Part shown: positions 13,592 to 19,194 of the stretch, piece after piece
Layout: every line of letters starts with the position of its first letter
Position numbering within the stretch: position 1 is the first letter of the stretch
Source of the DNA: Saksenaea vasiformis B4078
Lineage: Eukaryota; Mucoromycota; Mucoromycetes; Mucorales; Saksenaeaceae
Assembly: GCA_000697055.1 (NCBI GenBank)
Contig: JNDT01001359.1
Span: 1 to 64,000 of the forward strand
DNA: 64,000 bases
Direction of reading: 5' to 3'
Translations under genes and position numbers: made by a program
The notes under the pieces: generated by a model
The model's database searches: none
What the model was told of the DNA's origin: nothing
The model's input: only the letters and a program-made list of their open reading frames with translations

Positions 13592-13686
13592 ATACGATAA
13601 TCTTAAACTGCTAGTCAGAATAGATATACCCACTACATAGCTGGATTTTTCTTGTATACAACATGAGATTTTGCCGGAGCTTTATG

Positions 13687-16580
13687 CTACTTGCTGAAGG
13701 ACACCGCCATCTTGCTTTCAGTGGTATTCAATGGTTGCTGAAACGCTTTTGGCCGCTCATTTTGATTATATGCCATATGCTGGAATACTTGCCGAATGTT
13801 GATTGCGGCCATTGCATCTCTATTCCACACCGTGCTACACTTGTCGCATTCGAGAACAGCATGGATCTTTCCCCCTTCTTGTCCCTTTGCATCTGGTCGT
13901 TCCTCTTTGTTCGCTAGACTCCGATGTTGACATTTTGGACATATCTGAGACGTCAAGTACTCGTCAACCAAAATGACCTTCACGTATCCCTATAGATATG
14001 TTAGCATGCTTTATACGTTAATTTTGTCCAGTACCTTCTTTTGATAAGCCATATCTTTTAGTCTTTTTAAAATGCGCTTTGATGGGGCACTCATTTTTCC
14101 CTTCATGGTACCCGAGAACGATCCGTTCTCAAATGCTATAATCGTGGACTTCTTGTCGCTTTCCTTATCATTCGCGCAGAGAGGTCTCCATTTTTTCTTT
14201 TTAGGCGAATTTTGATGTATTTGATGCGAGTACTTTTGACTTCCACCTAGGAGGCATTTTGCGATCTGCGTGGTTCCTTTTTGCTTGTCAATGTACGATT
14301 TCAGCTTGAGTTTGTTGTATCTGATGTGGTGTTAAGTCCCCTGCAACGAAGTTTAACTATACCTGGCACCTTGATCATAGAAATTACAGATAGCTCGGTG
14401 GTGCTGAAGTCGATATTGGACAGAACGTATGTACGTCCCCAAGTCAGCAGTCTTTGCCGTTGGTATTCCGTCGATAATTTTCTTGGTCTCAGGACTCTTG
14501 TCCAAAAACTCCCGACGTTTCTGCGTCGCCCGATTGAAGCCACATATGTCATAGTATTCTTTCGTACTTATCGATCGGATATGATGCGCTTCTTCGCAAG
14601 AACCGTCAACAGCGACAAACACATCAGTCACCCCAGGATCGACTCCCCAGATGAGGGAATCACCAATGCGGTCCCGGAGATCAGCAGGCGTTAAAGGTGC
14701 CAGAGGCTTGGGCGTTTGGGTTTCTTAAAAAGAAACACCACATCCGTTCCGTCAGTTCTTATCGTATCCCTATCGGACAATGTAAATGAGAATTCAACAA
14801 ACCATAAATGTGGATACCAGAAAAGACATTTCTCCGTTTCCAAACTTTCCAGTGTTAGAAAGCCGATTTTTCGAGTATCAAAGGCGCGGAAATATTGCTC
14901 GTGAGCTAGTTCATTCGAAAGCACAGTGCTATTTGTTGTAATTCCTGCCTTGTTCAGCATGCGTGAAAACGACTGCTTGTCAAGCATGATGTGTCGCATT
15001 TGAAAAGAATATAGAGGAAGTAAAGTGAAGCGCCGAGCGCCCTTTGGATCTGTGCACTTCAATGGTCGGAATGTACCTTCATCGATACTTTTCGCCGTAG
15101 TTTGAACGAATTCCACCAGCTTTGGCCAGGTATCACCAAGAAGCTTTTGGTTAAAATGTTTTGATAGTTTCCGTGATGTTCTGGATCGAATGGCTAAACG
15201 AACAGCCGCATTCAAACTCGAGAGCAACTTCTTTGATAATTTGAGATTCTTTGTAATATATTAATTTCAATGGTTAGTTATTCTTCCTGCACTCAATACT
15301 TACCTCTTTCACGTTACGATAAACGAACGCATTCGACACATATTTTTGGGGCTCCTCTTCTTGAATAAACACTTTCTGTTCTATTCGCTGAAGCACCCGG
15401 AACAACCATGGTAGATAAAGGTGAGGATTGGCGTTCAAGCTTTCATCTGTGATGGGGCATGGACCAACGTCGAGCGATCCCATCAGCTCGTTCACATATG
15501 CTTCACAACTTGTGGTACGTTCAAGAGACTGTGGCCATCTGACTGTATTTGGGTCTTCCGAAGTGACTTTATCGTAAATGTACGATGCCATATGCTTTCG
15601 TTCAGCAACAGTAGTTTTGCCCATATATGCCGAGTCCTGGACGTCAGATAGACGAATGAGCAAATACTGGATGCTTTTGTTCTTGAAATTTGCCACGACA
15701 TGATTGCGAACAGCTTCTTCATATTGTTTCGCACCGTCTGAAATTAAGGTCATGTAGCCTTGCGAACGGAATATATGTGGGTCAAAAGCCGGGACCTGAG
15801 TTCGGAAAAGTTCGAATGCATCTTTGACATTCTGTGGCGCCCTTGATCCTTGGCCTGCAACCAGTGAAAATAAATCGTAAAAGAAATGGAGAGACAATGC
15901 TGGCACTTGCTGCTTTTGCGAAAGAAGATGTAATATGTAATAATTTGCAAAAAGCGACCCGCAGTAGGTAACGTCGCGCACATGCTTCACAGCTCCATCT
16001 AGCACCTTGACGAATTGGTCACTCTTACAGATGCTTTTCATTGATGTCTTGATGATAGATGTCCTTTTCAGTTCGGTGGTTTGCCTTCGTTTGGGTTTGT
16101 AATTTTCGCATGATTTGTTGGAAGACCTACTGTGGCCAGACTTTCCGCAACTGCTACAAACAATTGCTTCACCTTTGGCTATCTTAGCCTCTTGTTTAAG
16201 CCTGTGCTGCTCCGCTTTGGCTTCCCTCTTCGCGTTGCGCTTTGAAGTAGCTTTTTCAAATTTGATCTCAGCTTTTGTTTTATGAGACGACGATGATGCA
16301 TCTTACAACAGATGATTGAGGCTATGTTTGTGTATCTTTAACTGCTTTACCTTCTGATATTGTTGCAGTCGAAAATTTTACTTTTTCTTTCTTCGCTCTC
16401 GTGGTCTTTTCCTTGACAGCTTTCTGTCGCTTTCCTTTACGAGGACGCAGTGGTTTCTGAAAGTCACCATCACTGTTACTTGCTTTGTGAAGAGAGAGCT
16501 ATATCCGTTAAGTATTTTTTATATAAGATATTCGATATACTTCTTACATGTTTTGAACTTGATCTTGATCTTTTGCTCAT
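13687..16580 (-). CDS. Fanzor protein, copy 1 (eukaryotic TnpB-like RNA-guided nuclease), one frameshift
   Basis: Fanzors are eukaryotic relatives of transposon-encoded TnpB nucleases, several shown to cut DNA with a guide RNA. Reconstructed exons: 16548-16580, 16351-16498, 15304-16301, 14363-15248, 14035-14320, 13687-13989, about 883 residues. Features in order: basic Ser/Lys-rich N terminus; a zinc knuckle CSSCGKSGHSRSSNKSC near residue 105; a long helical recognition region; RuvC-I WGVDPGVTDVFVAV with Asp near 596; STKEYY; a coiled stretch ending FYDQGARYNKLKLKSYI; RuvC-II region IIAFENGSFSGTMKGK near 751; VDEYLTSQICPKC...CDKC zinc ribbon near 792-833; RuvC-III WNRDAMAAINI with Asp near 842. 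One lesion: the frame shifts by one base within the AAA at 14693-14695, between FLFKKPKRPS and LTPADL. The intron at 13990-14034 carries a TGCTAAC branch site. No TIRs were found. Confidence 0.88.
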
Positions 16581-17627
16581 GAGACAATAACCTGGGTGAA
16601 AGAGCTGTAATCTTTGTTGTCAGTGATCGATATCTAAAGGAAAGCAAAAAGGTGTCACACATCAGAAATGACGTTTACTGTCTTTCGCAAGCATACTTTT
16701 CAAAGAAGGAAAATTAAGGTTATAAAGAAGCTAGGAGGACATATAAGATCGACGATTTTAGACGTACTGTTGTTTGCTGGATATCTCTCCACGACTATGT
16801 GGTTAACTTGAAACACGCACACATTCTAGCCAGCAAAAGAAATCCAATTTGACGATTCGAGATTAAGACACCATCAATACCATAGAAGTCAATCGATCTT
16901 CAGATAGCGATCATTCGTTGTGTAAAGCAAAGGCCTTTTAAAAAAGAGCCAAGTAGTCAACAACAAATATAACACCTCAACTATTGATCGATGAACATGA
17001 GGATGAGGATGACCTCCCTACTTGTTGGATTACGCGGTCTTTTAAGATCATCGGATCACCATTAAGTCCATGATAATGAAAAGCAATGAATAGTGTGTAT
17101 ATGAATAATTCCAGTTGCAGTATTTGTTTTGCTTCGTAATACTAATTTTTCTACGGAAGGAGTTTTGGAAAAGAAATCAAAAGCGGATACCGTTAGGAAG
17201 AAGAAATGATACGATAAAGAAAAAATATCTATGTATCTGATGCTTCATTTTCTAATGTCACAGATAGGATATCCTCCCCTTTCCCTCTCTGTAGGAAAAG
17301 GAAGAGGGCAGTGGAAAGATGAAGAGCTTATTGGCAAGAAGCGATAGAGAAGCAGAGAATATGTATGAAATAGCCATTATGAGGACTGCCCTGAGGGAGG
17401 TCCTAGACCAACCCCAAGATGCACTACTGAGGCGAAAGCAAAGCACTTGACTAGCCAATTGGGAAAGGGTCCCAGGTTCCAATTTTTACGGGCTGTGACC
17501 TTCGCTTCATCCTGGGAAAATGATTGTAAAAAGAAAATGATGGAAAAGGAAGGACAAGGATGATGATGACCAACTTTATTTAGATGATAAAGATTTTGAC
17601 TTGTCCACGCGAATGGATGGTGGTAAA
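16581..17627. other. Upstream of Fanzor copy 1, no gene recognised
   Basis: No ORF with a recognisable motif. This could contain the left end of a Fanzor-carrying element, but I saw no inverted repeat pairing it with the 3' flank at 13592-13686. Confidence 0.4.
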
Positions 17628-19194
17628 TTGGAGGTACCCCCAAAAAAGGTAATACTGCCCGTATAAAACGCGAATTTCTGTGAGAATTTTGCACTACTTC
17701 TACTCTTCACTTCTTATTCGAGAATCTTCTTCATGTCTTTCCAACTGCTCCAAACTTTTCCTCATTATCCTGAAGAAAATGCCAAAGTAGTTGTGCAATT
17801 CCCACGAGATGAGGCTGGTGTCTACAATGTTGGAAAGCTCGACATTGGTTGGTGTCTGAAATGACAGAACGGGTATGCTATCCCAAATGGTCGGCAATTG
17901 ACAAAGACCTGTCTGGGCTCTGTCCGGTGTCTGAACACCATGTGTGAGCTGGAGCTGGTCGACCTCAGGTCGAAAGCGACCCAAAAGCTGATTGATGCCC
18001 AGTGTGAAAAGGGCTGCGGTGCTTGTGGATATCCTATGATCCATAACGCATGCAAAGCCAGGGTGCACTTCAGATTTGAAGATGATAAGTGCTACATGTA
18101 CCCTGGCACTGCAGCTGGCGAGGATTCGTACAGCCATGATTCATACGAGGCAAAGCACTTGAGCGCCGAAGCCTATTTTTTTACTACAGTAGACGCACGA
18201 TATTGCCAAATTTCAACGTCGCTCTGCTTCATTTGAATTTTTCTTCCAACTCGCTATAGACGAAGGTAGAAGCAATAAAAGATGTGACGGAAAGATATTT
18301 TATTTTGTTAGATGCTACATCGATATGCGTATCTTTTAACTTGGATAACGACATAAAAGGGGACAAGGCATAGCTGCATTGAAAGGGACAACCGCTGAAT
18401 CACTAAAAGCATTTTCAGTTCAATGCGTCCTTGTCGAAATGTAACGAGTAAGATGATGTAATGTATACATCGCTGGAATTTTCGAAGGAGCTTCGTAATT
18501 GTAGAAAAAAGATCGGCAATGACACTGCTTCAAGGATATCTTCTATTGAAGATGGAAACCTTTTTTGCAAGCTTTCATTTTCATGCTCATTGGTAACCAG
18601 AATCGAAACATTCATTAAATATCTGCACGAATATTTAATTCCACTAAATAGAGCAAAGTATAGCGATGGTACGATTCTTCTGGTACATAGATGTCACTAT
18701 GCCAGTTTGTTGAACTATAACTGATGATATCTCATCTTTAAACTGAAAAGAAGGCTTGGGACATGTTGTTCTTATAATTTATAAGTAGAGAGAGTCAAAC
18801 AAGAATTGGAATGAGGACAAAATAGCAAATTATACGTGCTGCTATACCCTTGATACATAATGCTGTATAAACCGACTAATCAGATGCTGGTTAAATATGC
18901 TTATAATTATCAGATAAAGCTATACATTAAAATGTACTGGAAGGAAGGTTATTGTAAATACTTGTTCCTTGACCGCCCTCAGCAGGTACCTCTAGCGGGT
19001 ACCTCTATCACTTTTAAGGTGTCAGTGATAAGAGTACTATCAGACTAACATACTTTCTTCCTATATGAAAACTCACAATTTCAAGAAAGTAATCTTTACT
19101 TACGTGGGAAATAGTGGGAAATAGTGACAATAAGCAAATATTCACCAGTTACTATGCTCTCATCACGACCTTCCTTTCATAGGGGTACCTCCAA
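17628..19194. mobile_element. Remnant DNA transposon with 13-bp terminal inverted repeats (tentative)
   Basis: TTGGAGGTACCCC at 17628-17640 is matched by its exact reverse complement GGGGTACCTCCAA at 19182-19194. Between them are a zinc-finger pseudogene starting 93 bp inside the left end (17733-18236), and two more GGTACCTCTA copies near 18984-19006. Outside the repeats I found no convincing target-site duplication, so the limits are provisional. GCM/WRKY-like zinc fingers are common in Mutator-like transposases, which makes that superfamily plausible. Its right end lies next to the truncated 3' end of Fanzor copy 2. Confidence 0.45.
17733..18236 (+). pseudogene. GCM/WRKY-like zinc-finger transposon protein, broken
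   Basis: An ATG at 17733 opens a frame MSFQLLQTFPHYPEENAK that runs to GWCLK, meets a TGA, and continues in the same frame as QNGYAIPNGRQLTKTCLGS. The downstream part has the Cys/His pattern of GCM1/WRKY-type fingers found in transposases: TCLGSVRCLNTMC, then CEKGCGACGYPMIHNAC, then MYPGT with the expected HNH replaced by an altered stretch ending KHLSAEAYF. A TATAAAA sits about 75 bp upstream of the ATG. The single in-frame stop and the abrupt end after LSAEAYF mark it as a decayed gene fragment. No DDE catalytic domain follows. Confidence 0.6.

Follow-up and report, generated by a model that had tools for sequence, protein, structure and literature searches.

Fanzors are eukaryotic relatives of CRISPR nucleases, and Helitrons are rolling-circle transposons. 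Carriage of Fanzor1 by a Helitron is already known from Chlamydomonas, where the carrier is a non-autonomous Helitron2 (PMC3627910, available text). The elements concerned, CRe-1, 2, and 3, resemble those described here in bearing an intron-containing Fanzor1 on a Helitron-type element; they have hairpins at both ends, insert after TTTT, and are more conserved at their 3′ ends than at their 5′ ends (PMC3627910, same portion). In contrast, the elements analysed here have Helitron1-like TC and CTAG ends, insert between A and T, and in one contig (C457) carry Rep-helicase frames beside the Fanzor. Fanzor1 elements are also described in other Mucoromycota, namely Mucor, Rhizopus, and Phycomyces (MCi, ROr, and PBl), and in one of them, MCi-2, the 3′ part is constant and the 5′ part variable; the available text of PMC3627910 describes this group as MuDr-like, Harbinger-associated, Crypton-like, or unclassified, and none of its members as Helitrons. 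Helitron transposases are named among the partners of Fanzor1 in the excerpted part of PMC10711439. A functional likeness exists with IS200/IS605, in which an HUH single-strand transposase (TnpA) and an RNA-guided RuvC nuclease (TnpB) share one element (PMC10711439, same excerpt). The present elements are not members of that group, as they have a Rep-helicase in place of Y1 TnpA, Fanzor1 in place of TnpB, introns, and a eukaryotic host. A 2023 Nature paper, citing Helitrons, suggested that Fanzor cutting might aid the self-copying of single-strand transposons (PMC10432273, in the portion available). No description of a Rep-helicase plus Fanzor arrangement was found in the titles and abstract openings of the listed papers on Helitrons with Fanzor, TnpB, or a zinc knuckle, or on Helitrons in Mucoromycota.

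We analysed a 64,000-nucleotide stretch of the Saksenaea vasiformis genome (hereafter, the window), which carries a Fanzor gene on its minus strand, as originally predicted. The C-terminal exon matched Pfam PF07282 (5.4e-12), and the protein matched NCBIfam guided_TnpB at 9.8e-9, under that model's cut-off. In the Protein Data Bank, the single window protein retrieved SpuFz1 at the top (0.003) and GtFz1 next (0.12). A profile built from 11 outside homologues, excluding the window protein, placed the solved Fanzors SpuFz1 (2.5e-13) and GtFz1 (1.5e-9) ahead of L79 (5.2e-8) and TnpB (0.0021), with Cas12g listed between L79 and TnpB. These 11 homologues were listed from a protein search in which 8000 candidates were scored, and the eight that are named come from Apophysomyces, Rhizomucor, Helicostylum, Radiomyces, Mucor, and Thamnidium. 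The single-protein, homologue, and NCBIfam searches used an 882-residue version that included 16 intron residues. SpuFz1, the Fanzor1 of Spizellomyces punctatus (PDB 8gkh), has the same split RuvC domain as the window protein, with DPG, an NRD Asp, and a Glu that has moved to a position ahead of the zinc ribbon. Whereas SpuFz1 has 633 amino acids in a single open frame and is associated with inverted repeats and TA duplications (PMC3627910, in part), the window gene encodes 866 amino acids, including a zinc knuckle, and has six introns.

The gene model is given in Table 1. Its product of 866 residues includes the two placeholder residues (XX) at the frame change, and each intron is 42–55 nt long with GT-AG borders. 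The earlier length of ~883 residues had resulted from reading through an in-frame 48-nt intron. This intron is supported by the motif FW, which directly precedes D/N..R(T/S)DG in all four listed outside homologues that fit the pattern; in three relatives within the genome, 49 or 63 nt separate FW from the RTDG-type motif. Three of the window intron positions match introns of the C457 Fanzor. RuvC-I, RuvC-III, the zinc ribbon, and the zinc knuckle were all present in the translated frames, and the expectation of a single frame shift as the sole lesion agreed with our finding of one frame change and no stop codons. At the site of this change, the linkers of Fanzor families I–IV are longer and of one fixed length, and that of the degenerate copy in C491 is nearest in length. 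The predicted translation supports a Fanzor1-like, nearly complete protein with one frame change.

Table 1. Predicted features of the Fanzor1 locus, in window coordinates
Feature	Position	Strand	Basis or remark
Fanzor1 gene	13687..16580	minus	seven exons, six GT-AG introns; predicted from frames and splice sites
Fanzor1 exons	16580-16548, 16498-16351, 16301-15304, 15248-14818, 14769-14363, 14320-14035, 13989-13687 (including stop codon)	minus	
In-frame 48-nt intron, earlier taken for coding	14770..14817	minus	
Frame change in the linker ahead of RuvC-I	14698..14711	minus	tblastn pieces C and D switch frame
5′ flank with persisting homology to C642; no left element end located beyond	16581..16670	minus	
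N-terminal zinc knuckle CSSCGKSGHSRSSNKSC	16108..16158	minus	residue pattern alone
RuvC-I Asp codon (WGVDPG)	14638..14640	minus	Asp in 29/31 relatives
Glu codon of AFENGSF, non-catalytic	14128..14130	minus	Gly in 35/37 relatives
Catalytic Glu codon (DEYLTSQIC), corresponding to SpuFz1 E541	13960..13962	minus	alignment to 8gkh; Glu in 35/35 relatives
RuvC-III Asp codon (WNRD), corresponding to SpuFz1 D606	13816..13818	minus	alignment to 8gkh; Asp in 30/34 relatives
Proposed right terminus of the element (..CATG), host TTG next at 13661	13662..13686	minus	matches C205 relic, CTTG then TTG

Helitron1 elements are described as having a 5′-TC, a hairpin ~10-12 nt before a terminal CTRR, and insertion between A and T (PMC3627910 and PMC5148889, available parts). 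Of four Fanzor families in this genome (I–IV), family IV matches this description at both ends, and the right ends of families I–III are Helitron-like. Each family has one right end, CTAG or CTTG, and in 26 of the 28 listed copies the next host base is T (TTA in 24); the patterns used for listing include the end motif, so independent evidence comes from the flanks only. The predicted right-end hairpin is strong in family IV, moderate in families II (12 nt from CTAG) and I (almost at the CTTG end), and weak in family III, which ends in CTAG. In family IV, the left end is sharply defined, reading TCTRGAAA in all nine rows with A before it in eight, and the right end has a 7-bp stem 13 nt from CTAG, with T following in six of seven rows. 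This family therefore combines 5′-TC, a 3′ hairpin, CTRR, and A|T insertion, with some rows sharing flanks; the 5′-TC is known from this family alone, the only one with a left end found. The 28 copies come from 30 loci, the other two (C527 and C329) falling outside the patterns and both reading CTAG|TTA. L076 and L077 read CTTG|TTA by eye, and no end was recognisable in L054 and L067. Four pairs with shared flanks (C10/C115, C26/C21, C6/C13, and C371/C624) probably represent one insertion each.

The right end proposed for the window element, CATG, departs from CTRR, as does the CTTG of family I. Its 61-bp alignment with the relic in contig C205 does not stop there but continues for 14 bp in T-rich DNA, and a search for a hairpin at this end gave no clear one; for both reasons, the exact end base at 13662 is a proposed position. 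The coding region of a convergent gene containing an allantoicase repeat (PF03561, 2.1e-30) stops 70 nt short of the proposed end. No convincing terminal inverted repeats were found in the flanks of the window gene among the 25 longest of 50 pairs. A MITE-like repeat of ~285 bp (16733-17017; ends GGAGG..CCTCC) lies just upstream of the Fanzor gene. It was considered as a left end and rejected, being taken for a separate MITE because its other copies have their own ends; about two dozen of these exist at 68-79% identity, and the flanks are CTA on both sides in the window and TTA in locus L045. Another repeat, of ~87 bp, at 17614-17700 is present in about a dozen further copies, which are 85-98% identical to it.

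The original prediction correctly recognised a Fanzor gene, but it missed one intron and the carrier transposon. In contig C457, a single strand carries matches to Rep (PF14214, 1.7e-42) and PIF1 helicase (3.7e-70), followed by a family II Fanzor ending CTAG|TTA. The Rep-helicase is spread over four overlapping frames, and the Fanzor has a frame change in its RuvC-II exon. One strand of contig C205 carries a Rep match and then a helicase match (2.1e-126); directly after the latter come 86% and 85% identical copies of window positions 14485-14310 and 13708-13648, and this relic ends CTTG|TTG. Because the relic belongs to the window copy's own subfamily, it provides the link between the window copy and Helitrons. 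Matches to Rep together with PIF1 helicase within an element were found in C457 and C205. A genome-wide Rep search gave 23 matches on 18 contigs, three of them under the cut-off. Four of these contigs (C457, C205, C548, and C527, the last counted on a sub-cut-off Rep match) had a Fanzor or relic on the strand of the Rep match, at most 10 kb downstream of it, and the other 14 had no Fanzor nearby. The chance expectation for such co-occurrences, computed by hand from 150 Fanzors in 38.7 Mb, was ~0.35. A search of the window with the C457 frames revealed no Rep-helicase remnant at E < 0.1. The left end of the window copy was likewise not located, and its CATG comes without a clear hairpin.

We consider it likely that the window contains a decayed Fanzor1 copy of a Helitron-carried subfamily, and our preferred interpretation is that of a non-autonomous Helitron passenger in decay. 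According to the available text of PMC3627910, the transposons that bear Fanzor1 genes are of many classes, MuDr-like and unclassified ones in Mucor, Rhizopus, and Phycomyces among them, and the carrier might therefore be a DNA transposon of some other class, the joins to Rep-helicase being due to chance or nested insertions. The MITE adjoining the window copy and the absence of a nearby Fanzor from most Rep contigs would fit such a carrier. However, one right-end design with one-sided T flanks is common to all four families, family IV begins with 5′-TC after A, helicase and Fanzor relic abut in C205, and the four co-occurrences stand against about a third of one expected by chance, which together make another class of carrier quite improbable.

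The reading of the window copy as decayed must also be set against the possibility that the strain itself carries an intact gene, perhaps retained by the host, in which case the frame change would be an assembly or base-calling slip. An 866-residue product with a single frame change and no stop codon would suit this, as would the substitution pattern relative to C642, a degenerate relative 71% identical to the window Fanzor: differences at codon positions 1, 2, and 3 were 76/384, 66/384, and 167/386, a third-position excess beyond that expected for chance reading frames. The corresponding values were 66/235, 54/234, and 87/235 for C491, a count that takes in the 48-nt intron, and 5/44, 2/44, and 6/45 for the short C205 relic. 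This pattern reflects shared history, not present selection, and the subfamily is single-copy, with close relatives (C642, C491, and C205) that are all degenerate; we therefore regard an intact gene as unlikely, and its expression, possible under that explanation, as conjecture. The retained catalytic residues, which would also accord with intactness, bear on a further proposal, that the Glu of AFENGSF is an active-site acid in a variant catalytic centre. AFEN does sit on the strand that bears the RuvC-II Glu in TnpB (PMC10711439, excerpt), and one other genome copy likewise has Glu there. In Fanzors, by contrast, the catalytic Glu precedes the CxxC of the zinc ribbon by six residues (PMC10711439, excerpt) and sits on a loop ahead of the TNB domain (PMC11423790, in part); the window protein has a Glu so placed (E-YLTSQI-CPKC) together with the DPG motif (WGVDPG). 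The catalytic residues of SpuFz1 are D383, E541, and D606 (PMC11423790, in part). In the 8gkh alignment, the DEY Glu and WNRD Asp of the window correspond to chain residues 935 and 1000, which a single offset of 394 converts to E541 and D606. Of 37 genome relatives, 35 have Gly in place of the AFEN Glu, one has Glu, and one has a gap, and six aligned relatives from other sources read AFG; the residue counts (here and in Table 1) used 59 of 80 loci, many overlapping, with the window's own loci excluded. A catalytic role for the AFENGSF Glu is therefore not supported, and a variant centre is very improbable.

A zinc knuckle was also found on the Rep-helicase side. In C457, an exon located 5′ of the Rep frames encodes MPSVRSSICPSCGGSDHRRSSSRLC, which resembles the window knuckle and is 54% identical over 24 residues to the knuckle of the Fanzor in the same element (1.1e-6). 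A genome search with this C457 knuckle gave 50 matches, nine strong and 41 weak. Five of the nine strong matches were on contigs with Rep matches, upstream in gene order (C457, C560, C134, C622, and C628); from this place and recurrence, we infer that the exon is part of the Rep-helicase gene. By hand count, 29 of the weak matches overlap Fanzor matches, two adjoin them, and ten do neither. No such knuckle was seen in the stretches of C648 and C432 examined. Among the 11 listed outside homologues of the window Fanzor, three have such a knuckle by the pattern used, that of Radiomyces being nearly identical to the window's. The knuckles of the two proteins may have arisen either by common descent or by convergence. 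In C513 (15717-15851; L048), an exon ~92% identical to the C457 knuckle exon is followed on its strand by a family I Fanzor, whose stop codon is ~5.5 kb downstream.

In six of seven copies of family II and seven of seven of family IV, the terminal CTAG supplies the TAG that stops the Fanzor frame. The distance between stop codon and end is 23 nt in family I (7/7) and 20 nt in family III (8/9, with the C329 row tallied under pattern II). In the window, the distance is 25 nt if the end is at 13662. With the stop codon at or near the transposon end, any guide RNA produced from the right end would overlap the coding sequence. A search for such an RNA matched no Rfam family. Sequence variation showed no consistent drop toward the right end: it was lower toward the end in family III, flat in I, mixed in II, and highest in the last 75 nt in IV.

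Judging from its anatomy, the ancestral element would have moved by Rep-helicase rolling-circle transposition, entering A|T sites as single-stranded DNA. By analogy with TnpB, the Fanzor would be guided by an RNA running from the right end into the flank and would cut the vacant target or the sister chromatid. Repair would then copy the element back, as proposed for TnpB and in line with the suggestion in PMC10432273 (available portion). The window copy would have lost its left part or never been autonomous, and then taken its frame change; it probably yields no full protein now. From the analogy, we infer that nuclease and transposase cooperate. A broader idea is that the Helitron HUH Rep-helicase and the RNA-guided Fanzor form one functional unit, a eukaryotic counterpart of IS200/IS605, with a Fanzor frame that extends into the terminal hairpin, with a right-end guide RNA that overlaps the coding region and takes its guide from the flank, and with similar knuckles that may recognise the same element. 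We put this forward tentatively and as doubtful, since the integrity of C457 is only putative. These results bear on why transposons carry Fanzors: a genome with recent elements holding both kinds of gene would allow the suggestion in PMC10432273 to be tested, and the stop codon overlapping the element end points to a possible place for a guide RNA. By itself, the window copy is modest, a decayed family member whose supposed active-site variant is not one.

The genome contains several Fanzor families with near-identical copies. The C-terminal exon search gave at least 150 Fanzor matches (the best 150 of 310 candidates), all at E < 1e-5, some of them two pieces of one locus, and a search with the 330-aa exon gave 123. 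The C-termini closest to the window copy were 62% identical among the matches listed, and long DNA matches in its coding part came only from C642, C205, and C491 among the closest rows. Fanzor copies lie at contig ends in C159, C425, C296, C306, C55, C299, and C384, as if the assembly had perhaps been broken by near-identical recent copies. In C205 (L042), at ~1380-1430, two Fanzor elements, each from a different family, seem to be arranged tail to tail, with their right ends ~24 bp apart.
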